Notes: generated by a model from the sequence alone, not told the origin. 40,077 bases of DNA from Candidatus Zixiibacteriota bacterium (GCA_016235085.1 JACRMA010000030.1:1-40077); one strand, 5' to 3'; shown: positions 1,822 through 20,143, numbered from the stretch's first letter. Numbers and translations: made by a program.

Positions 1822-4140
1822 ATGATCAAACGAGAAGAAGCACTCGAATACCATCGTCGTGCACGGCGTGGCAAGATCCAGGTCACACCCACAAAACCTT
1901 GTATGACGCAACTCGACCTGTCGCTGGCGTACACGCCCGGTGTGGCCGAGCCGTGCCGCGAGATCGAAAAAGATCCCGAGGCCGCATTCATGTACACCGC
2001 CAAGGGCAACCTGGTCGCGGTCATCTCCAACGGAACCGCGGTCCTCGGATTGGGACACATAGGCGCGCTCGCCGGGAAACCGGTCATGGAAGGCAAGGGC
2101 GTACTGTTCAAACGGTTCGCCGATATCGATGTGTTCGACATCGAGGTCGATGAGCTTGACCCGGAGAAACTCGTCCAGATCGTCAAGTCGCTGGAGCCGA
2201 CCTTCGGTGGAATCAACCTCGAAGACATCAAGGCCCCGGAGTGCTTCTACGTTGTGGAAAAACTCAAAGAAATCATGAAGATCCCGGTCTTCCACGATGA
2301 CCAGCACGGCACCGCGATCATTTCCGGCGCCGCCCTGCTCAATGGCTGCGAAATCGTGGGCAAGAATCTCGACAAGGTCAAAGTTGTCTTCAACGGCGCG
2401 GGAGCCGCCGGCATCGCCTGCGCGAACCACTATGTGCGTCTGGGCGTCAAACTGGAGAACATCATACTCTGCGACACCAAAGGCGTGGTCTACAAAGGAC
2501 GCACCGACGGAATGAATCCGTACAAGGCCAAATTCGCCTCGGCCACGACGGCGCGGACGCTCCAGCAGGCTATGGAAGGTGCCGATGTCTTTTGCGGCTG
2601 CTCGGTTGCCAACACGGTGACCAAGGACATGGTACGCGGGATGGCGAAAAATCCCATCGTGTTCGCCATGGCCAATCCCGATCCGGAAATCACCTACCCC
2701 GATGCCAAGTCGGCGCGCAACGACGTGATCATGGCAACGGGACGGTCAGACTATCCCAATCAAGTCAATAACGTCCTCGGATTTCCCTTCATCTTCCGAG
2801 GGGCTCTCGACGTGCGCGCCCGTGCCATCAATGATGAGATGAAGATTGCGGCGACGCACGCTCTCGCATCGCTGGCGAAGCAGCCTGTGCCGGAGTCGGT
2901 GCAGGCGGCCTACGGCGGCGCCGAATTCACCTTCGGGCCCGACTACATCATTCCCAAACCCTTCGACCATCGGGTGCTCCTCTGGGAAGCCAAAGCCGTG
3001 GCCAAAGCCGCCATGGATACCGGCGTCGCTGGAGTACCAATCGATCTCGACAAGTACACGGAGCAATTGGAAGCGCGTCTGGGACGTTCGCGTGCGGTCA
3101 TGCGTGACGTTATCAATCGCGCCCGCCGCGAACCCAAGCGGATCGTCTTCCCCGAGGGACACGCAGCGAAGATCCTCTATGCCACGCGCACCATCCGTGA
3201 CGAGAAGATCGGCGATCCCATTCTCATCGGCGATCCCGAACGGATCAAAGCCCGCGCGGCCGACCTCAATGTCGACATCGAGGGGCTGGAGATCGTCAAT
3301 CCTGCCACATCGGAGTGGACCGAATCCTTCGTCGATGAGTTCTATCAGTTGCGCTGCCGCAAAGGCTGCACCTTACGTGATGCCCGCCGCGCGGTGGAGG
3401 ACAACCATTACTTCGGACTGATGATGGTGCGCACCGGCAAAGCCCATGGGCTGGTTGCCGGCGCCACGATGCATTACCCCGAAGTCCTGCGTCCGGCACT
3501 GGAGGTCTTTCCCAAATCCGACCACAACGAGAGAGTGGCCGGGATGAACATGCTCATCCTGGAAAACGACATCCTCTTCTTCGCCGACACAACGGTCAAC
3601 ATCGATCCCACAGCGGAGGACCTGGCCGACATCACCCTGACTTGCGCCGCCAACGTGCGCAAATTCGGCATGGAGCCCAAAGTGGCGCTGCTGTCGTTCT
3701 CCAACTTTGGCTCGGTCCGTCATCCCAGTACCGACAAGGTCCGGCGGGCGGTGGAGATCATTAAGGGACGCAACCCCGCTTTGATCGTCGACGGCGAGAT
3801 GCAGGCGGATACCGCGGTGACTCCGGCCATCCTGAATGAGACCTACCCCTTCTCGAAACTCAAGGAGCGGGCGAATCTGCTGATCTTCCCCGACCTGCAG
3901 TCCGGCAACATCGCCTACAAATTGGTCCAGCGGCTCGGCAATGCCGAGATCATCGGGCCACTTTTGGTGGGAATGGAGCGTCCGGTGCAAGTTTTACAGG
4001 TCGGATCGTACACAGTGCGAGATATTGTCCATCTGGCCGCTGTGACCGTGGTGGAGGCTCAGGGACGGGTTCAAAGAGAGTTGTTCATTACCAAAGAGCG
4101 TATTTCCGAACCCGACATCCACGAGGCGATCAAGAGCTAA
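1822..4140 (+). CDS. maeB: NADP-dependent malic enzyme with C-terminal phosphotransacetylase-like domain
   Basis: Oxidatively decarboxylates malate to pyruvate. The 772-aa length and domain order match the MaeB hybrid class: a malic domain (about 1-160), an NAD(P)-binding domain (about 160-425, with the nucleotide loop [15 protein letters not shown]), then a phosphotransacetylase-like domain (about 435-772). Visible motifs are the catalytic tyrosine region [24 protein letters not shown], and the metal-binding stretches [11 protein letters not shown] and [11 protein letters not shown]. In known MaeB proteins the PTA domain is regulatory, binding acetyl-CoA, rather than catalytic. ATG at 1822 follows GAAGGGGAATTGGCC; the ORF-track start 33 bases upstream has no ribosome site. 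The gene is divergent from citrate synthase and ends at a terminator. Confidence 0.95.
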
Positions 4141-4172
4141 CGCGCTGTTATTCAATGTGTAACGGCAAGAAT

Positions 4173-4200
4173 GGGCGCCCAGTTCCGGGCGCCCTTTTTT
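4173..4200 (+). terminator. Rho-independent terminator of maeB
   Basis: Perfect 8-bp stem GGGCGCCC / GGGCGCCC with loop AGTTCC, directly followed by six T residues, 32 bases after the maeB stop. Confidence 0.92.
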
Positions 4201-4243
4201 GCCCCTGGCATGGTCAACTTGTCATAATACCGTCGAGCTAGGC

Positions 4244-4273
4244 TGCGCAGTGGGTGCGTAATGCCACTGCGCA
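4244..4273. repeat. Inverted repeat in the gene-poor gap
   Basis: Arms TGCGCAGTGG and CCACTGCGCA are separated by a 10-base spacer. The sequence GGCTGCGCAGT at its left end recurs about 78 bases downstream (4319), again followed by a CGCAC-containing stretch, so this looks like a decayed small repeat. No coding function is evident. Confidence 0.6.
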
Positions 4274-4521
4274 CTTAAGTCCTTGTGTCACAACATTAAA
4301 AACAGGCGTGCGCAATAAGGCTGCGCAGTCACTACGCACTTTGAGCCTCCGAAACCGTGTGCCAGCTCAAGGCGTTTTTCGTGTAAGTCATTGGCAATCA
4401 ACAAAACGACCTTCAAAATTGCCCTCCAACTTCACGTGGCACGATTGTTGTTATGCATTGTTGCGGCGAGAAATTCCGCGGGTTCCGTCGCGAGACGAAT
4501 CGGGGGATGCGGATCGCCAAA

Positions 4522-4587
4522 AGCCCCGCCGCCGGATGATGAGATGGAGGGCATCGAATTCACCCCGGCGGTCGGGGCTCATTTTTC
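4522..4587. other. Long bulged hairpin with T-tract; candidate terminator or small RNA end
   Basis: The interval 4201-5032 (about 830 bp) holds no convincing gene. Inside it, arms of 14 paired bases (AGCCCCG-CCGCCGG at 4522-4535 and its complement at 4565-4579) pair with only one bulged base. The loop is 29 bases, and CATTTTTC follows on the plus strand. The minus-strand transcript would end in TTTTGG. It sits between convergent genes, so it may terminate transcription in both directions, or be the 3' end of an unannotated plus-strand RNA. I see no clear promoter for such an RNA. Confidence 0.5.
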
Positions 4588-5032
4588 GCTCCAACTTGAA
4601 GCAGCAATAACCCGCCAATTCCCCGGCGTGGTTGACAGGTCCTCCTTGACCATCAATCACGAGGGAATAAGTTACCATCCTGACGTGTAGTGCATATGAC
4701 TCCGCCGGCTTGGGGGTGGACAGATTCACGGCGCGAGTCAATCGTTGATCGGCTAATGTTCAGGCAGTTTCGAGTCGTTGGATTCCGCAGACCAAGCTGG
4801 ATTATTGCGAATGTCGGCGTGGTGTTCGTCAGCCGTGATCAGGACCAAGGCGACCGGTACGTTGTCCGCATCCCCGATTTCGACAAAGGCTCACCATTCG
4901 CCTGCAGTATCGCCCTGATAAAAGAGGTGGGCGTCCTCTGGGCTGCGCCCAAGCGATACCGCTCAGCGATCAACCGGACAGCCACCCGACAGCAACAGCC
5001 CTCGCCGCGACCTCTGTCTTGCACGTCAGCAA

Positions 5033-9022: not shown

Positions 9023-10096
9023 TCAGGGCCTCGGCCCGATATCGAGACCTCCGTCGATGCGTAAACCCATCGGAGGAAGCGTGGTAGTCTGGTAGGTCAT
9101 GTCCACTACGTTAAGGATGCGTAGCGGCTGGAGGGAGTGGCCGTCGGCTCGGCCTGACAGTACGGCATGCCTGTTGTCCGGCAAAAAACGCACCTGTGAT
9201 TCGCGGGCAAGAATGTCCGTGAACCGCCGGATAAGGGTCAGGTGGTCAAGATCAATGACACTCAGAGATTGTTCAATCCCCAGCATTTCCGGTGGGTCGG
9301 TGACCACGGCCACGGAGCCGTCGTCGCTGATCCCGGCCTCTCCATAGGGCAGAGCCAGGCGATACTCGTAGAGGGTTTCGCCGGTGACCACGTCGCCAAT
9401 CACAAACCAGGAGTAGTGGACACTCCCGTTGAGACCGATGACCAGTACCCTCCGCCCGTCCGGATGCAGGCGAGTATACTGTGGAAGCAGTGCTAGTCCA
9501 TTGGATAGACGCGGCTTATACCGCCCGGAGGATTCTCCGGTGGAAGCATCGAGTATCGCCACAACTGAGTCTTTAGTCGAAGCGACGAGGCTGCCCGTCG
9601 ACGGCCCAAACATGCCTGAAGAAGCGCCGACAAGATGCCTGATCACGGTCCCGTCCTCGGGTCGTACAACGTCGGCGCCGCAGAGCAACTCCTTCCCGTG
9701 CGAAAGGAACTGCAAATGCCCTCCGAGAGAATCGCGTCGCCACACTACTTGCTTGCTTTCGATGTCGATCTTCGAGAGCGCGGCGTAGCTGTATCTGTCT
9801 GCCCGATCGACGACGTAAAGAGACCTGCCATCGGGCGAAGCCGCCAGTATCTCCGGATACTGCTGTCGCACAATTGAGTCGAGGAGCACCAAGCTGTCGG
9901 CGTCGTAGATGAAGATCCGGTGACTGACGCCGCGATAGATGTTGTACTTGACGTCCTTTGGCTTAGTTGACTTCCCGCAGTCGATGACAACCAGGCAGGC
10001 TGTGGCCGCAACGAGGACAATAGCCCAACTGATGCGAAGGGCAGATTCAACTTTCCCCCACAGCGGGAACCGCGGACTGGCATTGCTCGTAGTCAT
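9023..10096 (-). CDS. YVTN/WD-type beta-propeller lipoprotein
   Basis: A 357-residue exported protein. The hydrophobic segment ISWAIVLVAATACLVVI is followed by CGKSTKPKD. The lipid cysteine could be Cys34 (ATAC) or Cys40 (VIDC); the TKP context favours Cys40 by analogy with neighbouring lipoproteins, whereas the lipobox rules favour Cys34. The rest is propeller-like, with blades such as ILAASPDGRSLYVVDR, RLHPDGRRVLVIG, AGISDDGSVAVVTD and VRFLPDNRHAVLSG. A surface or periplasmic binding role is likely; the substrate is unknown. ATG at 10096 has GAGGAGTCAA in front. Confidence 0.75.
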   Translation of the reverse strand: MTTSNASPRFPLWGKVESALRISWAIVLVAATACLVVIDCGKSTKPKDVKYNIYRGVSHRIFIYDADSLVLLDSIVRQQYPEILAASPDGRSLYVVDRADRYSYAALSKIDIESKQVVWRRDSLGGHLQFLSHGKELLCGADVVRPEDGTVIRHLVGASSGMFGPSTGSLVASTKDSVVAILDASTGESSGRYKPRLSNGLALLPQYTRLHPDGRRVLVIGLNGSVHYSWFVIGDVVTGETLYEYRLALPYGEAGISDDGSVAVVTDPPEMLGIEQSLSVIDLDHLTLIRRFTDILARESQVRFLPDNRHAVLSGRADGHSLQPLRILNVVDMTYQTTTLPPMGLRIDGGLDIGPRP

Positions 10097-10344: not shown

Positions 10345-10497
10345 CTGGACCCTCCCAGTCTACACATCCCTCTACACTTATGTGGCGCGTTCTATTCCCG
10401 GCCGCTTAACGCCGCAGGCCGCTTGCACGACTAATCCCCATGTGCCATCTTTATCATGAATCTCAGGCACCATACGAGCTTGAACAGGAGGTGTGCG

Positions 10498-11496
10498 GTG
10501 AACTGGAAATCCATCCTTGCTACAATCGTCATCGTCGCGATGATCTCATCAACTGCGGTCGCGGGCGAAACTTCATCGCTCAGACCCGTATCGACCTTTT
10601 CAATTGTCGCGCGGGACTCCGTGACCGGCCAGTTGGGCGTCGCGGTGCAATCGCACTGGTTCTCGGTGGGACCGGTCGTGCCGTGGGCCGAGGCCGGCGT
10701 GGGCGCAATTGCCACACAATCATTCGTGAAGATCGATTATGGTCCCGATGGACTCGATCGGTTGCGCAAAGGCGAAACTCCCCGGCAGGCTCTGGACGCC
10801 ATGCTCGCCGCCGACTCCGGGCGTGAGGTGCGTCAGGTGGCGATCCTCGACGCCAGGGGCAATGTCGCGGCGCACACGGGGAACAAGTGCATTATCTACG
10901 CCTCGCACATCACCGGTCCGGGTTTCTCGGTGCAAGCAAACCTGATGGAGGATTCCACCGTGCCCCGCGCCATGGCCAAAGCCTATCGCGAAGCGAAGGG
11001 CCACTTGGGAGATCGCATCCTCGCCGCATTGCGTGCCGCCGAGGGCGAAGGCGGTGACATCCGCGGCCGCCAATCGGCCGCCATCCTGATCGTTGACGGC
11101 CAGCGGCATGAGAAACCCTGGCAGGGGAGGCTGGTCGAGTTGCGGGTGGAAGATCATCCCGATCCGATCGGCGAGTTGTCGCGCTTGTATCGTCTCAACG
11201 AGGCCTACGACTGGATGAATCGCGGCGACGTCTACTCGGAAAAGAAACAATGGGACAGCGCATCGGTAGCCTACGGCAAAGCCGAGAACCTGGCGCCCCA
11301 GATTGCCGAATTGCCGTTCTGGCATGCGACAACACTGGCAAGCGCCGGCCGAATCGACGAAGCCCTGCCAATCTTCGAGCAAGTCTTCGCCAAGGAGCGC
11401 CGCTGGATTCCGCTGGTAAAACGCCTGGTGCCCGCCGGGCTATTGCCGAATGACACGACGTTGATCAATCGGATACTTTCTCGAATACCAAAGTAG
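10498..11496 (+). CDS. Exported DUF1028 (Ntn-hydrolase-like) protein with TPR-like tail
   Basis: A 332-residue product. After a signal peptide (MNWKSILATIVIVAMISSTAVAG) the DUF1028 region runs from about 30 to 225: TFSIVARDSVTGQLGVAVQS, VGAIATQSFVKIDYGPDGLD, GNVAAHTGNKC and GFSVQANLM. The family adopts an Ntn-hydrolase-like fold; its biochemical role is unknown. The last ~90 residues (AYDWMNRGDVYSEKKQWDSA, ASAGRIDEALPIFEQVF) look like two TPR units. The ORF track starts at 10456, but GTG at 10498 has a near-perfect AGGAGGT site and a cleaner signal peptide. It heads a run of six exported proteins on the plus strand. Confidence 0.88.
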   Translation: MNWKSILATIVIVAMISSTAVAGETSSLRPVSTFSIVARDSVTGQLGVAVQSHWFSVGPVVPWAEAGVGAIATQSFVKIDYGPDGLDRLRKGETPRQALDAMLAADSGREVRQVAILDARGNVAAHTGNKCIIYASHITGPGFSVQANLMEDSTVPRAMAKAYREAKGHLGDRILAALRAAEGEGGDIRGRQSAAILIVDGQRHEKPWQGRLVELRVEDHPDPIGELSRLYRLNEAYDWMNRGDVYSEKKQWDSASVAYGKAENLAPQIAELPFWHATTLASAGRIDEALPIFEQVFAKERRWIPLVKRLVPAGLLPNDTTLINRILSRIPK

Positions 11497-11562
11497 TAAT
11501 TTGGGCCGGCATTAGCTATATTGGTATTGCAGGTTGAGTTCGCCAGCAACGGGAGCCTGATC

Positions 11563-12048
11563 ATGAGATACCGTGCACTCACAGGAATAGGAATCGTAGT
11601 CTTGATCATTGCCGGGCACGCCTCCTGCAGCCACAAGGGACCGACCCAGTGGGATGGAACCCTCAAGTGGGTCAACACCTCGGCGCTATATGAGCAACAG
11701 AACGCCAAGAGAGACCATTCGCTGTTATTTGTCGTGACCACCTGGTGCGGCTGGTGCAAGCGGCTGAAGAACGAGACTCTGACTGATACCGCTGTGTGCC
11801 AGATCCTGAGTGAGTCATTCAACATCGCGGAAATCGACGCCGACTCCGACAGTTTGGTTGCCTATATGGACACAACCGTCACGTGCCGTTATCTCAGTGG
11901 GACGATTTACGACGTCAGCGGCTATCCAACAACAGTAGTGCTAACCAAAGAGGGCAAGCTGATCGGCACAATCCCCGGTTACAAGAACGCCGCCGATTTC
12001 AAGGCTCTCCTGATTCGGATCCGGGATGGTGAGTTCGATCCCCATTGA
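11563..12048 (+). CDS. Thioredoxin-like lipoprotein with CGWC motif
   Basis: A 161-residue predicted lipoprotein (hydrophobic signal, Cys22 in HASC) with a thioredoxin-fold domain. LLFVVTTWCGWCKRL carries the CxxC redox pair (Cys62, Cys65), and VSGYPTTVVLTKEGK contains the cis-proline turn and following strand. The CGWC variant and the short domain resemble the thioredoxin_7/DUF255-like group that acts as thiol reductase or disulfide carrier outside the cytoplasm. Two further cysteines (around residues 86 and 108) are present. ATG at 11563 follows GGGAGCCTGATC; the earlier start in the ORF track lacks a ribosome site and would bury the signal peptide. Confidence 0.82.
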   Translation: MRYRALTGIGIVVLIIAGHASCSHKGPTQWDGTLKWVNTSALYEQQNAKRDHSLLFVVTTWCGWCKRLKNETLTDTAVCQILSESFNIAEIDADSDSLVAYMDTTVTCRYLSGTIYDVSGYPTTVVLTKEGKLIGTIPGYKNAADFKALLIRIRDGEFDPH

Positions 12049-12212: not shown

Positions 12213-14279
12213 ATGTCCAATGCAAGGCCGGTGGTGAGACTGACATTCGTGATTCTCGGCGTAGCTGCACTCATTCTGGTCTCGTGCTCGGGCCGGAGCA
12301 CGAAGCCGGTGGACGCAGGTGACCCGGAATTTCATGAACTATGGCCAGATGAAGAGGCCGAGTTGATGGCGCTTCTAATCTCGGAAAAGACAAGCGCACC
12401 GCGAAAGTTGTATGACCAGATAAGTTCAGACTTGGGCTATATCCGCAAGAACTGGGGTGACTCGATCCCCATTGTTAAGCAACTGGTCTTCTCCCCGCCA
12501 TTCTTCGCTGGACATATTGAAATGGGCGTCGACAACAACATCTTCGACTCGATGCAAGCCGGTAAGTACACGAACTGGGACTCCCTCAATCAGTACTTCG
12601 GTCTGGCCAGTATTCACTTTGGAGGGTCGTCAAACGCCGTCTTTATTCAAATGACTACTAGAGTCAACCCCAGGATTCTCGTTTCAGCCTATCGGGGTCT
12701 GCCTGGAGTACGCTGGATCCATTCTGGCTGGTCAGGAATGGACCGCTCGCGGCTATACGCCTACTTGGATTCGGTCGGCCCGAGTTATCTGTTTCGTGAG
12801 GGTTGGGGTGATTGTCCGGCAGGATGCATTCACTCGCGTTACTGGTACTTCCGGTCAGAAAACGGAGCAGTGTCGTATCAGGGCGAGTTCCGTCCAAGCT
12901 GGGACAGCGTTATTCCCGAACCGACCTGGTGGAGCGCAGCCTCCAGATGCATTGAATTGTACCATGCTGCGACCCACTGGGAACGAAAGGACAGCATACC
13001 TCCCACGCCAATTACAGACCTCCTCGCCGGGAATCCGACTGGAAATTCGATCACTCTATCATGGACGGCACCTCACGACCCCGGAAGTACCGGTGGTGCC
13101 TCTCGTTATGATATGCGCGTTTCAACTTCGCCCATAGTTGATTCCAACTACAAACAGGCTCAGGCAATATACGGGATCCCCACACCTGGAGCGCCGGGAA
13201 GTCCCGAACACTTTACATTCATGAGGTCGGGATCCAATACCAAGTACTACTTCGCGATGAAGTCGATGGACTATGACAGAAATACGTCAGCAATTTCCAA
13301 TTTGGCCCATGCGACAACGCTGGCCACATCGGACTGGAAAATCTTCGATACATCAAACAGCCCGCTGGTCAGCAATAGAATCACTGCTCTTTGTGCCGAG
13401 CCGAACGGGACGATTTGGTGCGGTACCGAGGCAGGAATCAGCCGTTACGATGGAAGCGGCTGGTCGACATATACCTCGTCCAATAGCATTCTGCCGAGTG
13501 ACTCAATCTCGACGATCACACTGGACCGTGAAGGCACCTGCTGGATCGTTACTGGCACGGGGGTCGTGAAGTTCGACGGAACCGACTGGTATCCCATCAA
13601 CGTTGATACGAACGGGCTTGCAAGCAGCCATGTTCGCTGTATGGCAGTTGACTCGGCGGGGGGGATTTGGTTTGGACATGACAATGGCATGGTGAGTTGC
13701 CTGAGCGAGGGCAAATGGACCCACCATCAGATCTACGACGGCCCGGATCACTTTGCCCCAATCTGGTCCATGACATGTGACAAGTCCGGAAATGTTTGGC
13801 TCGCCACCGATTCTGGTGCGTTCAGATTCGTTGGATCCGTTTGGACGAATCCGACAGCCGAAAACAGCGATCTTGTGAACTCGAGAATCAGGGTGATGGG
13901 CGCGGATCGAAGTGGCGTCTGGTTTGGCTTTTTCCACAACTGGTATTATGGGGTAAGTTTGTTCACGGGCAGCTATTGGAAGCTGTTTTCATTCATGAAT
14001 AGTCTGTTCCCCGACGAGTCGATCAATTCAACGTCCGTGGATCACGAAGGGCTCATCTGGTTTGCGACTCCGGCGGGAGCCCTCCGCTTCGATGGCGCGA
14101 ATTGGATTCTCGTGCAGACTCCACTCAGCGGCGCGCACTCCAACAATGTCACGGCCATCGCATTCGACTATTTTGGTCCAATTTGGTTTGGAACTGACGC
14201 TGGAATCTGTGTCTTTGCACCGCAGGCGACATCCACATCAGCGGTCATTGAGCGATTGACTGCAACAACCATGAGGTAA
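12213..14279 (+). CDS. Lipoprotein with unknown N-terminal domain, FN3-like domain and two-component-regulator-type propeller
   Basis: About 688 residues. The lipoprotein signal ends in LILVSC (Cys25), followed by SGRSTKP. Residues about 35-260 form a domain shared with the lipoprotein at 16161: both have EAELMAL.(I/L)SE...AP..LY..I..DL..(I/L)R.N.G near the start, and PxWWS near the end. Residues about 275-370 resemble a fibronectin type III domain (PITDLLAGNPTGNSITLSW). The rest has Reg_prop propeller blades, e.g. GTIWCGTEAGISRYDGSGW, GGIWFGHDNGM and GPIWFGTDAGICVF. The product is probably cell-surface. The start is uncertain: ATG at 12213 follows GGGGGTGGACA, while ATG at 12186 has GGAGG only 3 bases away. 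Base composition is lower than the neighbours. Confidence 0.72.
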   Translation: MSNARPVVRLTFVILGVAALILVSCSGRSTKPVDAGDPEFHELWPDEEAELMALLISEKTSAPRKLYDQISSDLGYIRKNWGDSIPIVKQLVFSPPFFAGHIEMGVDNNIFDSMQAGKYTNWDSLNQYFGLASIHFGGSSNAVFIQMTTRVNPRILVSAYRGLPGVRWIHSGWSGMDRSRLYAYLDSVGPSYLFREGWGDCPAGCIHSRYWYFRSENGAVSYQGEFRPSWDSVIPEPTWWSAASRCIELYHAATHWERKDSIPPTPITDLLAGNPTGNSITLSWTAPHDPGSTGGASRYDMRVSTSPIVDSNYKQAQAIYGIPTPGAPGSPEHFTFMRSGSNTKYYFAMKSMDYDRNTSAISNLAHATTLATSDWKIFDTSNSPLVSNRITALCAEPNGTIWCGTEAGISRYDGSGWSTYTSSNSILPSDSISTITLDREGTCWIVTGTGVVKFDGTDWYPINVDTNGLASSHVRCMAVDSAGGIWFGHDNGMVSCLSEGKWTHHQIYDGPDHFAPIWSMTCDKSGNVWLATDSGAFRFVGSVWTNPTAENSDLVNSRIRVMGADRSGVWFGFFHNWYYGVSLFTGSYWKLFSFMNSLFPDESINSTSVDHEGLIWFATPAGALRFDGANWILVQTPLSGAHSNNVTAIAFDYFGPIWFGTDAGICVFAPQATSTSAVIERLTATTMR

Positions 14280-14282
14280 GCT

Positions 14283-14819
14283 ATGCACCGCGCGATATCA
14301 CTCGCAATGAAGGGACTCACAACCGGGCTCTTGGTTGTGTTCTCCCTCGCCTGCCACAGCAGCCCCACCAAGCCCCTCGGCGACCCGCTTTTGAAATTCA
14401 CCCGCCAGCCCGCCGACGGTTTCTGTCCACAGGAAGGCAAACTGTTCAAGTCCACGATCTGGAAGAACACATCGGGCACTCATACGCTGACGGGCACCGT
14501 CCTCGTTGGCTTCGATGGGCAGCACGACAGTTGTGTCGTCACCATCGGACGCTGCCTGGCCGAGGTTCCATTCCGGCAACACGTCCTCACCACGGCAGAG
14601 GCCACCCAACTGCAGACACTCCTGGCGGCCATACCGACCGAGGCGCCACCCATCAACTTTGCGTGCGACCCTTGCGTAATTACGCGGTATGAATTCGATG
14701 GCCGGACGGTGGATAACAATCCGTGCTTCGAGATATCCGACGCGGCCGATGCCTATCGGCAAAGCCTCACCGCCGTCGAGGACTTATTGAGAGTGATGGC
14801 CGAAGGCACGGCGTACTGA
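14283..14819 (+). CDS. Small lipoprotein of unknown function
   Basis: A 178-residue protein with a clear lipoprotein signal (LLVVFSLAC, Cys24) and the TKP motif just after it (CHSSPTKP). The mature part contains five further cysteines (PADGFCPQEG, SCVVTIGRC, NFACDPC and NPCFEI), so disulfides are likely. I do not recognise a family. It starts 3 bases after the previous stop, so it is almost certainly co-transcribed with it. Confidence 0.7.
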   Translation: MHRAISLAMKGLTTGLLVVFSLACHSSPTKPLGDPLLKFTRQPADGFCPQEGKLFKSTIWKNTSGTHTLTGTVLVGFDGQHDSCVVTIGRCLAEVPFRQHVLTTAEATQLQTLLAAIPTEAPPINFACDPCVITRYEFDGRTVDNNPCFEISDAADAYRQSLTAVEDLLRVMAEGTAY

Positions 14820-14878
14820 AGCGCCGGCCAAGGGAAAGGCGCCGGATGCGCCGATAGGAATGGAGGAGGTACGATCCC

Positions 14879-16123
14879 ATGCGACTATTCGTCTGTTTGC
14901 TCGCCGGCACCGTGATCCTGGTCGGGTGCCAGGGTAATCCTGCCGTGTCCAAGACCGAAAACAACAATGCCGAGAAGTCCAAGGCCGTGGTCGATGACCG
15001 CCTCGTGCAGGCGAATACCCGTTTCGGGTTCAAGATGTTTGCGGAGCTGGCAAAACACTCCGCTGAGGCAAATATCTTCGTCTCCGCCCCCAGCGTTGCC
15101 ATTGCCCTGACCATGACCTACAACGGCGCCGACAGCACGACGCGCGACGCGATGGCCTCGGCACTCGAGCTGGAGGGACTCAGCCTCGATCAAGTCAATC
15201 AGGCGAATCGCGCCCTGAAATCGCTGCTGGAGAATCCCGATTCGGCCGTGACCCTCTCGATCGCGAATTCGCTCTGGGCCCGCGAGGGACTGCCATTCCT
15301 GCCCGATTTCATGAATCGCAACAAAGAGTTCTACGGAGCCCGGGTCACCAGCCTGAACTTCGACGATCCCGGTGCGGCTCCCACGATCAACACCTGGGTC
15401 AGCGAGAACACGCATGAGAAGATCCAGCAGATCGTCGACGCCCCCATCGACCAGGGCACTATTCTCTTCCTGATCAACGCGATCTACTTCAAGGGCGCCT
15501 GGACTCGGACATTCGATAAGGCGCGCACTGTCGATGGCCGCTTTACGCCATTGAGTGGCGCCGGACGAATGCTGCCATTCATGCACCAGTCGGGCAGCTA
15601 TCCATACCTGAAAGGCGACGGTTTCCAGGCGGTCAGCCTTCCCTACGGCAAGGGACGCGTCAGCATGTACATCTTCCTGCCCAACGAGGGAACGAACCTC
15701 GCCACGTTCCAAAGCGGCCTGACGGCGGCATCCTGGGAACAATGGATGGCTCAGTTCGCCATGCAGGAAGGCGATATCGCGCTCCCGCGTTTCAAACTCG
15801 AGTATGAAGCGAACCTCAACAGCGTGCTGGCGTCACTGGGTATGGGAATCGCCTTCGATGGCGGACGGGCGAATTTCAGCAAGATGTTCCCGATTTCGCA
15901 GAGCCGGAACGTCTTCATCAGCAAGGTCAAGCATAAGACCTTCGTTGACGTCAACGAGGAAGGGACCGAAGCCGCGGCCGTCACATCGGTGGAAGTCGGC
16001 ATCACGTCGATCCGTGAACCACAAGAGCGTTTCAATTTCATCGTCGACCGGCCCTTCTTCTTTGCGATCCGCGACAACCAGACCGGGACGATTCTATTCA
16101 TGGGTTCTATCGTGAATCCGTAG
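14879..16123 (+). CDS. Serpin-family lipoprotein (serine/cysteine protease inhibitor)
   Basis: A 414-residue protein with a lipoprotein signal (LVGC, Cys17) and a full-length serpin domain (about 40-414). Recognisable serpin blocks are NIFVSAPSVAIALTMTYNGA, NSLWAREG, LINAIYFKGAWTRTFD, DFVDVNEEGTEAAAVTS-type hinge (TFVDVNEEGTEAAAVTSVEV) and RPFFFAIRDNQTGTILFMGS. The hinge EEGTEAAAVT fits an inhibitory serpin (small residues at P12-P9). Aligning to alpha-1-antitrypsin puts P1 at about Thr in GITSIRE, with Ile and Arg close by, so target specificity is uncertain. A surface-anchored inhibitor would protect against external proteases. ATG at 14879 is preceded by GGAGGAGGT. Confidence 0.93.
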   Translation: MRLFVCLLAGTVILVGCQGNPAVSKTENNNAEKSKAVVDDRLVQANTRFGFKMFAELAKHSAEANIFVSAPSVAIALTMTYNGADSTTRDAMASALELEGLSLDQVNQANRALKSLLENPDSAVTLSIANSLWAREGLPFLPDFMNRNKEFYGARVTSLNFDDPGAAPTINTWVSENTHEKIQQIVDAPIDQGTILFLINAIYFKGAWTRTFDKARTVDGRFTPLSGAGRMLPFMHQSGSYPYLKGDGFQAVSLPYGKGRVSMYIFLPNEGTNLATFQSGLTAASWEQWMAQFAMQEGDIALPRFKLEYEANLNSVLASLGMGIAFDGGRANFSKMFPISQSRNVFISKVKHKTFVDVNEEGTEAAAVTSVEVGITSIREPQERFNFIVDRPFFFAIRDNQTGTILFMGSIVNP

Positions 16124-16140
16124 GGTGGGCTCCGCCCACC
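16124..16140. repeat. Short palindrome GGTGGGC-TCC-GCCCACC
   Basis: A perfect 7-bp stem with 3-base loop directly after the serpin stop codon. No T-tract follows. It resembles other intergenic REP-type hairpins in this window. Confidence 0.6.
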
Positions 16141-16160
16141 ATTGCGGCGGAGAGCCGGCG

Positions 16161-17324
16161 ATGCGCAAATCACACATAGTCATTCTAGGTGTCCTGACAA
16201 CAATCGCCCTCGCGGCCTTTGGTTGTGGCGAGGAGAAGATCACAAAGCCCAAGCCTGTGGGTCTCCGGCTGACACCACTCGCCAATGCCGAGGCGGAGCT
16301 GATGGCGCTCTGGCTGTCCGAGGAGGTCGAAGCACCGTTGGATTTGTACGAGCGCATCCGCGCTGATCTGGTGGCACTCCGATCCAACTTTGGCAACACT
16401 CCGCTCCTCGATTCGATCTCCTTCACATCGCCTTACGAACCGGGATTCCTCCTCTTCGACTTTGGTCCATTCGGGCGTGAGGAACTCCTCAATCACGCCA
16501 GCCCCGTCTGGGATTCGCTCAATGCCCTGTACAAACCCGTCTTCGATACGACCTACCAGCGCGCGGCCTTCCCCGGACGGCTGAATGCAATGCGGCTGGC
16601 GGAAGCGTATGCCCGCGTTTCGCAAATCTCCGACGGGGGAGTCGGATTGCATGTCAATATGACGTTCGGAGGATGGTGGCCAAACCAGATCACTCCCGGA
16701 TTTCTGGGCGGCGATACCATGGTGTATCTGTTTCAGCACTCCTACCAGGAACAGCCGATTTCGGCGCCCGACAGCATTGCCTTTTGGTGTTACTACTCCA
16801 CCCCCAATGCCGCATGGTCGGCCGGACGATATGTCGTTGATGACACAGGTCAGGGCGATGCGCCTCCCAGTTGGTGGAGCGACTTCTGTTCGCACGCATG
16901 GCACATGAACCAGCGCGCCGAACGATGGTGCCAGGGCGATCCGGGCATTGTCCCGGTACGCATCACGGACGTTCCGCCGGCCAGCATCGGACGCGACGGT
17001 TTCACTCTCCGATCGGTTTCGCTGTCGGGCAACCTGATCTCGATCACAGTTCAATACGGCGGCGGCTGCGAACCCCACGACTTCCTGCTGTTCATGAGCC
17101 CATCGGCATTTGCGGAATCTTACCCAGTCCAGGCGAATCTGTACTTGATGCACGAGGACAACGACGACCACTGCGAGGCGCTGATTACCGAGACAATCCG
17201 ATTCGACATTTCGCCGATCGCCCGCCAGTACGAACGCTTTTACGGCCAACCCGGTGACATCAGGCTGAACGTATTCAATTTCGAGCGCACCGAATCACTG
17301 CCAGTGCTCTATCATCCGCGGTAG
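16161..17324 (+). CDS. Lipoprotein of unknown function, paralogous to the N-terminus of the 12213 gene
   Basis: A 387-residue lipoprotein (signal ending AAFGC, Cys22; then GEEKITKP). The region EAELMALWLSEEVEAPLDLY through the motif PPSWWSDFC corresponds block by block to residues about 35-260 of the protein at 12213. Here, however, the C-terminus is a different, shorter beta-rich domain without FN3 or propeller blades. No known family is recognised. ATG at 16161 is preceded by GGCGGAGAGCC; the ORF-track start at 16125 overlaps the palindrome after the serpin gene and lacks a ribosome site. Confidence 0.75.
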   Translation: MRKSHIVILGVLTTIALAAFGCGEEKITKPKPVGLRLTPLANAEAELMALWLSEEVEAPLDLYERIRADLVALRSNFGNTPLLDSISFTSPYEPGFLLFDFGPFGREELLNHASPVWDSLNALYKPVFDTTYQRAAFPGRLNAMRLAEAYARVSQISDGGVGLHVNMTFGGWWPNQITPGFLGGDTMVYLFQHSYQEQPISAPDSIAFWCYYSTPNAAWSAGRYVVDDTGQGDAPPSWWSDFCSHAWHMNQRAERWCQGDPGIVPVRITDVPPASIGRDGFTLRSVSLSGNLISITVQYGGGCEPHDFLLFMSPSAFAESYPVQANLYLMHEDNDDHCEALITETIRFDISPIARQYERFYGQPGDIRLNVFNFERTESLPVLYHPR

Positions 17325-17691: not shown

Positions 17692-19932
17692 TTACGGACA
17701 GAACGGCGCCGAACCGCCCTCGAAGACAACATTGATCATTTTGATCACGTCGAACACGTCGAAGACGCTGTCGCAGTTCATATCCACGCGTCCCTCAGGT
17801 GGTATCGGTGGTGTTCCCCCCGAGAAGACAAAGTCAATCAAGCTGATGATATCGAACACGTCGACGGTTTGGTCACCGTTGAAATCGCCCATGATATACG
17901 CTGGTTGCACATAGAACTTGATGGCCGAGCCAAAGCCGGATGAATTGCCGGCGCCATCAGTCGCTTTGATGTGCCAATACCAGAATTGATTGGTCACAAG
18001 CTGGTTGGCCAAAGGCAACGGGAAGCTGGTGGTTCCCAATCCGCTGAACGACCGCAGGCCGGTTGTGAACCCCGGATCGGCTGCCACCTGCAACTCGTAC
18101 GTGACCGGCGTCGCAGCATCCGGCGACTTCGCCAGGGAAACAGCGGTCCATGCGAACGTCGGAGTCGTCGTGGTGATCGTGTCGTTGGCCAGCGGCGACG
18201 GTGGAATCGGCGTGGGAACCGCCGGTGGTGTGGCGTCGATCCAGATCGTCCGGACTGGCGAGAGCGCACTGGAATCACCAAAGTTGTCGAAAGCTCGCAA
18301 ACGCCATGAATACTGCCCATCAGGCAGTACTTCGGTGTAGCTATGCGATATCGGCACAGTGCGGAATGTGACTCCGGTGGCGAACAACGGATCGGTCGAA
18401 TACTCCAGCACGTAATTGAGCGAAGAATCGTAGGTCGACCAGTCACTCCATGAGAACGTGACCGATGGATCATTGGTGATTATGCCCGAGGCTGGTCCCA
18501 GAAGTTTTGGCGGGAACAACCGCAGCGGCATGTTGGCTGCGTACACATCCTGATTGAAATCCCGTGTGTCGGTGAATACGACAGTGGCTCTCAACCGGGT
18601 GGAGGTCAAGCCGATGTATTCTCCAATCAATCCGGCGTTGGGGTTCAAAAGTGTAATCGGCGTGCGATTATCATACGGCGTGATTTGCGGAGACGACTTC
18701 GCGGAGGCCGCATTGAACGGATTCGACGAGACGTTCGACACCCGCTGATTAGGCGTCCACGTTTGGCCGCCATCAAACGAATGCGTGATCCACAAGTCGA
18801 AGAGCAGATTCGACGGGTCAAGCCGGCGGTCATAGAACGCCACACTCACAACCCCATCGGGATTGACCGAAATCCAGGGATGGAACTGATCGGCTCCATT
18901 CCCGACCGGATCGTCGTTGAGACGCTGCCGTGGCGACCACGTCTTGCCGCTGTCAGCGGAGACGGTCATGTATAAATCGAGAAATCCATCGGCCGCCCGA
19001 TCGGGGAAGGCACAATAGAACCGCCCGTCGTAGGGGCCATCGGTGATATCGGCGGTCAGCGCGGGATACGCGAAGGCGAGGATGCCTCCGTTGATGTTCT
19101 CGGCCAAGAATGATGTGGGAGCAACGACGCGGTCGGTTCCCCACGTGAATCCCTGATTGGTCGAGATGTCGCACAGAATGGCCGACCGGGCAAACGAGAG
19201 CCAGGCAATCACAACCCGGCCATCATTCCCCACCGCCGGCGTCGGCCACTGCACATTGCCCTTGTCCGAAACCGGGCGGGGCGTACTGAAACTGAATCCG
19301 TCGGTCGAACGAATGCAATGGATTGCCGTCGTATCAGTGAAACGAGTCCACGCAACATAGACACTGCCGTCGGTCGGACCGTGGGTTTGATCGCACGCAA
19401 TCATCTCCTTGTCTTCAAATGGGCCCGAGGGTGTGTCAACGCCGGTCAGAACTGTTCCCCACGTATTCCCGGAGTCAAACGACACCGGGAAGAAGATGCC
19501 ATTGGCGGGCCCCACGGACTCAAACGAGAGAAGCACCGTGTAGAACCTTCCCGCAGAATTCGCCACAATCGCCGGGTCAGAAGCCCAGTCGTAGGGGAGA
19601 TTTCCGATCAGTCCTCCCTCGATCCAGGTCGTGCCCCCATCGTGAGTGTAGCCCCATCCGATCTGCCGATAACCGAGCCGAAAATCGCGCCATACGGCCA
19701 CCATGTTGTCCGGATTCGTCGGGTCGACAGCCACCTGCTCTTCGTTTTGCAGTTGTGTCGTCGCATCGTGATTCAACTTGATGTTCGGCGGGGTCGTGTC
19801 TGCGACATCGAACCACATCGGAATGTCCATGGCCGTTTGCGCAACAACCGAACCCGGATCCGCAAACAACGTCAAGAGGACGAGCAGGGAAACCAACACC
19901 ACCATGAGAGTGGCACGATCGCTCTTCGGCAT
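17692..19932 (-). CDS. Secreted BNR-repeat (sialidase-like propeller) protein with C-terminal dockerin-like domain
   Basis: A 746-residue secreted protein. The signal peptide ends near DPGSVVAQ. Five Asp-box (BNR) motifs mark a sialidase-type propeller: THDGGTTW, SFDSGNTW, STNQGFTW, SADSGKTW and SFDGGQTW. Two beta-sandwich (FN3-like) regions follow (about 475-690). The end has two dockerin-like calcium-loop helices, GDFNGDQTVDVFDIISLIDF and VDMNCDSVFDVFDVIKMIN, each followed by VFxGG. I cannot confirm sialidase catalytic residues, so enzymatic activity is not claimed. The dockerin-like tail usually marks exported proteins for attachment in Zixibacteria-type genomes. ATG at 19932 follows GGGAGTTCGAT. 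The gene converges on smr with only 15 bases between stops. Confidence 0.85.
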   Translation of the reverse strand: MPKSDRATLMVVLVSLLVLLTLFADPGSVVAQTAMDIPMWFDVADTTPPNIKLNHDATTQLQNEEQVAVDPTNPDNMVAVWRDFRLGYRQIGWGYTHDGGTTWIEGGLIGNLPYDWASDPAIVANSAGRFYTVLLSFESVGPANGIFFPVSFDSGNTWGTVLTGVDTPSGPFEDKEMIACDQTHGPTDGSVYVAWTRFTDTTAIHCIRSTDGFSFSTPRPVSDKGNVQWPTPAVGNDGRVVIAWLSFARSAILCDISTNQGFTWGTDRVVAPTSFLAENINGGILAFAYPALTADITDGPYDGRFYCAFPDRAADGFLDLYMTVSADSGKTWSPRQRLNDDPVGNGADQFHPWISVNPDGVVSVAFYDRRLDPSNLLFDLWITHSFDGGQTWTPNQRVSNVSSNPFNAASAKSSPQITPYDNRTPITLLNPNAGLIGEYIGLTSTRLRATVVFTDTRDFNQDVYAANMPLRLFPPKLLGPASGIITNDPSVTFSWSDWSTYDSSLNYVLEYSTDPLFATGVTFRTVPISHSYTEVLPDGQYSWRLRAFDNFGDSSALSPVRTIWIDATPPAVPTPIPPSPLANDTITTTTPTFAWTAVSLAKSPDAATPVTYELQVAADPGFTTGLRSFSGLGTTSFPLPLANQLVTNQFWYWHIKATDGAGNSSGFGSAIKFYVQPAYIMGDFNGDQTVDVFDIISLIDFVFSGGTPPIPPEGRVDMNCDSVFDVFDVIKMINVVFEGGSAPFCP

Positions 19933-20143
19933 ATCGAACTCCCGGACAAGCAGTTGTGAACTCGACGACATGTTGTGGCTGGCCGCAATGCGCTCCGATC
20001 CCTTGGGCCAGCCGGTCAGTACTGGGTTCCCTATCACGGAACACCGATAATGTCAAACTAACAATTATCCCGCTTTTGGCAAGCTCCGGAGCGAACCGGA
20101 TCGGATTAGTGGACAATATTCGGGCGAGAATCGACGAGGCGCG

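Follow-up and report, generated by a model that had tools for sequence, protein, structure and literature searches.

A widespread, unnamed domain of bacterial lipoproteins with a core homologous to subtilase prodomains, a putative protease-binding module

Introduction

Stand-alone inhibitors of MEROPS family I9 are mostly small and expose a C-terminal tail. Known stand-alone propeptide-like inhibitors include POIA1, the yeast peptidase B inhibitor and Arabidopsis SPI-1, as well as TgMIC5 and SUB1-ProM (PMC6993865), and a bacterial lipoprotein, Omp19 of Brucella, is also a protease inhibitor (PMC6607954). Here we analyze a 40,077-nucleotide stretch from a Candidatus Zixiibacteriota bacterium (GCA_016235085.1, JACRMA010000030.1:1-40077; hereafter the window), in which two neighbouring lipoproteins, P0001 and P0002, share a domain whose core is, on profile evidence, homologous to the prodomains of subtilases (S8 proteases).

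This domain has in common with the I9 inhibitors a propeptide-type fold detached from the protease, but it is larger (about 235 residues), lipid-anchored and bacterial, and its inhibitory action is putative. Compared with the fervidolysin N-terminal prodomain (PF22148), it lacks a catalytic domain, carries two extra N-terminal helices and an extra GDCPxGC meander, has a turn in place of the C-terminal tail, and occurs alone or fused to non-protease modules. Omp19 resembles it in being lipid-anchored and in the proposed restraint of envelope proteases, a functional analogy only. Serpins (PF00079) are encoded next to the domain in this genus and in a single Neomarinimicrobiota metagenome-assembled genome (MAG), although their fold is unrelated and the link is not general.

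Results

P0001 (12213..14279, + strand; possible alternative start at an upstream ATG, 12186) is a 688-residue lipoprotein, as judged from its open reading frame (ORF), Pfam matches and lipobox, and P0002 (16161..17324, +) is one of 387 residues. Read by eye, the lipobox of P0001 is LVS followed by the lipid cysteine C25, and that of P0002 is AFG followed by the cysteine at residue 22, with an unusual -2 position. The two proteins aligned by BLASTP over 282 positions with 27% identity (E=7e-14), and the P0001 domain, searched against the 3.3 Mb assembly, matched only itself and P0002 (E=2.6e-9), indicating that the similarity is not due to chance. The family profile, of which both are members, recovered P0001 at E=2.5e-87 and P0002 at E=1.8e-67. 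The domain spans residues 25-262 of P0001 (12285..12998, +; AlphaFold2 (AF2) pLDDT 90.2, pTM 0.86) and 22-262 of P0002 (16224..16946, +; GDCPAGC motif lost), slightly more than the 220 or so residues of the first-pass annotation, with a helix at its C-terminal end. Helices and strands were predicted to follow one another identically in both copies, and the objection of different folds or short chance blocks thereby fails; the C-terminal module of P0002 was modelled at low confidence. With the window proteins as queries, Pfam and NCBIfam returned no model for the whole domain. The domain is a real, widespread and unnamed family; the label "undescribed" holds at that level and fails for the core.

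To trace the core, S8 prodomains were collected from related genomes and 17 of them were aligned. An hhalign comparison of a 59-row family alignment with these prodomains gave a probability of 97.9 (E=5.5e-13, 75 columns), and an 18-row alignment gave 96.5, whereas 60 column shuffles reached at most 0.8 and 4.25, and a reversed profile 0.2. The PF22148 model (Fervidolysin_NPro-like) matched 14 of the 59 members at E<=0.1 (best 2.7e-6); one of ten re-tested members, L081, exceeded the gathering cut-off (25.9 bits against 21), while most fell below it and P0001 and P0002 had no match. Peptidase_S8_N was also matched, weakly. Some of the relatives' S8 prodomains share an LD-LN helix motif with the family (TGIASLDSLNSKYKV, for example, against GxYxxWDSLNxxY), and the LDxLNxxY and AEPN motifs are common to both groups in register. 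On the strength of the profile match and its shuffled and reversed controls, the PF22148 matches and the shared helix motif, the core is a divergent subtilase prodomain.

In the AF2 model of the P0001 domain, built with 59 sequences, the central unit fits the subtilase prodomain layout (PMC6993865). The added N-terminal helices (EAELMAL...LYDQISSDLGYIR; 12351..12482, +; model helices 23-33, 40-57 and 62-66) precede the prodomain-like core (12501..12731, +; elements E73 to E149), which is followed by a four-strand beta meander (12750..12890, +; strands 156-202) containing WGDCPAGC (12804-12827). Of the 18 rows collected by searching proteins with the whole domain, 12 have GDCP[AS]GC and two more keep both cysteines. 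The motif probably forms a disulphide. A solved structure was sought by sequence, with only chance RuBisCO matches, and the literature yielded no paper that deals with GDCPSGC in the domain.

The distribution of the domain proved to be wide. A search with the P0002 domain found relatives in 16 of 98 related genomes, a count that includes the source genome of P0002, and within the window's phylum (Zixibacteriota-type) the 18-row profile detected them in 26 of 133 genomes. A scan of GTDB genomes, seeded on [WD]GDCP[AS]GC, which inflates GDCPxGC counts in the wide set, returned 176 relatives, of which 80 were kept. By their names, the MAGs were from Zixiibacteriota, Krumholzibacteriia, Eisenbacteria, Phycisphaerae, Myxococcota, Auribacterota, Verrucomicrobia, Cloacimonetes, Calditrichaeota, Neomarinimicrobiota, Bacteroidetes, Alpha- and Gammaproteobacteria, Dadabacteria, Dehalococcoidia, Truepera, Poribacteria, Nitrospinota and others. 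Well over ten phyla besides the window's thus carry the domain, a spread that rests on MAG labels and is open to contamination, one "Hadesarchaea" contig having a Zixibacteria-like copy. No viral contigs bearing the domain were found. Most relatives, as read from their ORFs, are stand-alone proteins of 250-300 residues, some without a lipobox; other architectures include dockerin-type repeats, an FN3-like stretch with a propeller, a tandem double domain, a type IX secretion (T9SS) tail, a beta-helix and HEAT-like repeats. The domain is modular, and lipid-anchored in the window, as had been noted at first pass; surface display is conjectural. A Poribacteria contig (L112) holds four copies in a row, and a single 486-residue protein (L136, G055:C5) has the tandem double domain with GDCPxGC missing from both halves.

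The two window proteins differ in their C-termini, as first reported. In P0001 the domain is followed by an FN3-like stretch (12999..13337, +), recognized by eye only and without a Pfam FN3 match, and by Reg_prop beta-propeller repeats (13350..14222, +; PF07494, E=2.2e-25, six stretches). P0002 ends in a different module (16956..17321, +; YGGGC..HDF...ESYPVQANLYLxH type), which has no Pfam model, is present in 14 of 58 relatives, and also occurs separately in other genomes, often fused to a "DSRCPxxxxCxWAG" module. It adjoins a same-strand serpin not only in this genus but also in three lineages of other genera (G005, G011 and G037), and a module that resembles it by eye adjoins serpins in several Neomarinimicrobiota. 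Its link to serpins is clearer than that of the shared domain, and it looks like a second unnamed, serpin-linked family.

The serpin of the window (14879..16123, +; PF00079, E=9e-117) has a lipoprotein-type signal and is the only one in its genome. It lies in a same-strand row, P0001 - small lipoprotein - serpin - P0002, with intergenic gaps of 3, 59 and 37 bases; the small lipoprotein (14283..14819, +) has no family match and is retained in the sister species. In a Neomarinimicrobiota MAG the gene of a domain-bearing lipoprotein lies 70 bases upstream of a serpin, and in another MAG a domain protein is followed, about 2.3 kb downstream, by a serpin. Serpins are present in 15 of 50 domain-bearing genomes, and therefore chance would yield about 0.1 such cases (a rough estimate from about 30 serpins x 10 kb in 3 Mb).

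Other observations were made on serpin loci. Serpins occur in 58 of the 133 genomes of the window's phylum, with runs of three to five adjacent genes (G049:C30:24436-30787, G070:C89 and G007:C19), and seven of the loci from the Neomarinimicrobiota search have a small "ESRCPMDAQC" lipoprotein next to serpins (for example L249, 801-1337). Directly upstream of the domain-serpin pair of locus L108 is a DUF6438-like lipoprotein (3817-4746; PF20033, E=7.5e-7, just under the cut-off), and its assignment as an emfourin-type inhibitor was rejected, Pfam giving DUF6438. No paper on Zixibacteria serpins was found in the literature.

The history of the locus was examined by synteny and phylogeny. In the sister species (G001) the order is DUF1028 - thioredoxin - small lipoprotein - serpin - extra domain copy - P0002 orthologue - BNR protein, and P0001 is absent, while in another genus of the same family (G005) DUF1028 is directly followed by a P0001-like gene of the same architecture. 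In the tree, P0001 grouped with the G005 protein (support 96/90), while the closest partner of P0002 was the extra G001 copy (100/100). A constrained tree with the P0001 and P0002 groups in one clade gave an approximately unbiased test p-value (p-AU) of 0.020, or 0.052 with the G005 protein included. Tree and synteny hence disfavour P0001 and P0002 as recent tandem duplicates, and the claim that the domain was duplicated locally was largely wrong; local duplication holds for P0002 and the extra G001 copy.

Upstream of P0001 on the + strand are a DUF1028-TPR protein (10456..11496), the counterpart of the one preceding the P0001-like gene in G005, and a thioredoxin-like lipoprotein (11521..12048; PF13098, E=3e-11). 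A scan for promoters and terminators along the gene row gave sites no more numerous than in shuffled sequence, and the Rfam search of the window had no match. Recurrent neighbours of the domain elsewhere were rejected as a signal, the only ones being explained by related species. The window also contains an ORF without a Pfam match (9023-10096), kept in the sister species (80%) beside a 34%-identical paralogue; a BNR-repeat protein with a dockerin-like tail (17692-20037), retained in the sister species; and a locus of the CBASS type of anti-phage systems (38219-39815, +), with a CD-NTase (SMODS; PADLOC cyclase, E=8e-62) followed by an E2-type protein (PADLOC E2, E=8e-35).

Discussion

Our favoured reading, tentative and a little less likely than not, is that the domain common to P0001 and P0002 derives from a prodomain and regulates proteases on the envelope by binding them, within an envelope protease-control locus. 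It would be a free-standing extracytoplasmic derivative of an S8 prodomain, extended by the two N-terminal helices and the C-terminal meander, and kept on the envelope by its lipid anchor. The prodomain-type sheet may dock on surface helices of subtilisin-like or similar proteases, own or foreign, and the docking would restrain or position them; the 14 S8 matches in the genome are possible targets. The C-terminal modules, which vary between members (a propeller or the serpin-linked module, among others), would supply a second binding specificity, and two diverged copies with a serpin in a tight same-strand row would fit such a locus. In favour of this reading are the homology of the core, the helix-capping positions of prodomains (an acidic/Asn pair at the end of strand 4), which much of the family retains, the existence of stand-alone propeptide-like inhibitors (PMC6993865), and the serpin neighbours of the domain and of the C-terminal module of P0002. 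Given the descent of its core, the domain may be a free-standing protease-binding module.

Several observations weigh against this proposal. The P0001 sequence alone did not match the S8-prodomain model (E=2.4), and Foldseek against PDB, which by itself is insufficient to establish a prodomain origin, gave only generic ferredoxin-like matches (E>=0.013). P0002 lacks the motif cysteines. The chain has no free tail for insertion into an active site; as seen in the AF2 model and the alignment, a conserved G-D-G turns it into a further strand. Both window copies also lack the E/N residues that would cap the helices (H-S-G; rearranged), a role played by E69/D71 in subtilisin BPN' (PMC6993865). ORFs with S8 motifs were absent from the flanks (up to 5 kb) of the 80 family members and from the window, either as a catalytic domain after the core or as a partner gene next door, the motif pattern used having detected S8 at 24 of the 44 loci that served as controls. 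Among 89 other serpin loci, drawn from two phyla and from the domain-bearing genomes (partly the same genomes), the domain lay within 1.5 kb in only two, the Neomarinimicrobiota MAG and the sister species; a general domain-serpin operon was thus rejected, and the link is occasional. With a turn in place of the tail, neither window copy retaining the capping residues, and no linked subtilase gene, inhibition in the canonical manner of propeptides is doubtful, and the domain was therefore not assigned to the I9 inhibitors. The broader claim, that the family consists of captured-prodomain regulators of envelope proteases in well over ten phyla, binding through a surface other than the classical tail and paired with serpins in some lineages, is plausible but less likely than not.

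A close rival, quite possible in its own right, is that a captured prodomain fold no longer has its protease function, the domain now being a structural or ligand-binding surface module unconnected with proteolysis. The missing tail, the capping residues gone from the window copies and the lack of S8 neighbours all suit it, as do the fusions to many unrelated surface modules and a patchy evolution in which even sister species differ by losses and gains. It accounts less well for the capping positions across the family, where 45 of the 59 members retain N/D and 26 retain E, and for the serpin neighbours in unrelated phyla together with the serpin-linked C-terminal module of P0002.

S8 prodomains work in trans, and the 14 S8 matches of this genome, in which PF22148 has no match, could suggest a folding chaperone in trans for prodomain-less proteases; this is improbable, given that the domain shows no linkage to proteases, that the relatives' S8 proteins have prodomains of their own, and that its fusions are to varied non-protease modules. 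There is a similarly small likelihood that the core resembles prodomains only through a common ferredoxin-like fold, by convergence, like the RRM or metal-binding domains: Foldseek did place RRM and HMA domains first, weakly, but the profile match far exceeds its shuffled controls, the Pfam matches are specific to PF22148 and, weakly, Peptidase_S8_N, and the two motifs are shared in register. That this is simply a display domain of no wider meaning, which arose twice by local duplication on either side of the serpin gene, is very improbable in spite of the two nearby copies, with none elsewhere in the genome, and their lipoprotein signals, considering the wide distribution, the pairing of P0001 with G005 and not P0002, and the P0001-like gene beside DUF1028 in another genus.

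The analysis thus defines a real, widespread family and identifies the origin of its core; the regulatory function is put forward as a testable proposal. Homology of the core, the lipoprotein signals and the serpin context in this genus are established, whereas protease binding, its target, inhibition and the disulphide are inferred. Stand-alone propeptide-like inhibitors have so far come mainly from a few fungi, plants and protists. If bacteria have a large, still unnamed family with this core, detachment and remodelling of subtilase prodomains must have been widespread. The family is a clear target for naming, as an addition to Pfam, and for a binding assay of simple design, and it would help to annotate many "hypothetical lipoproteins" of uncultured phyla.
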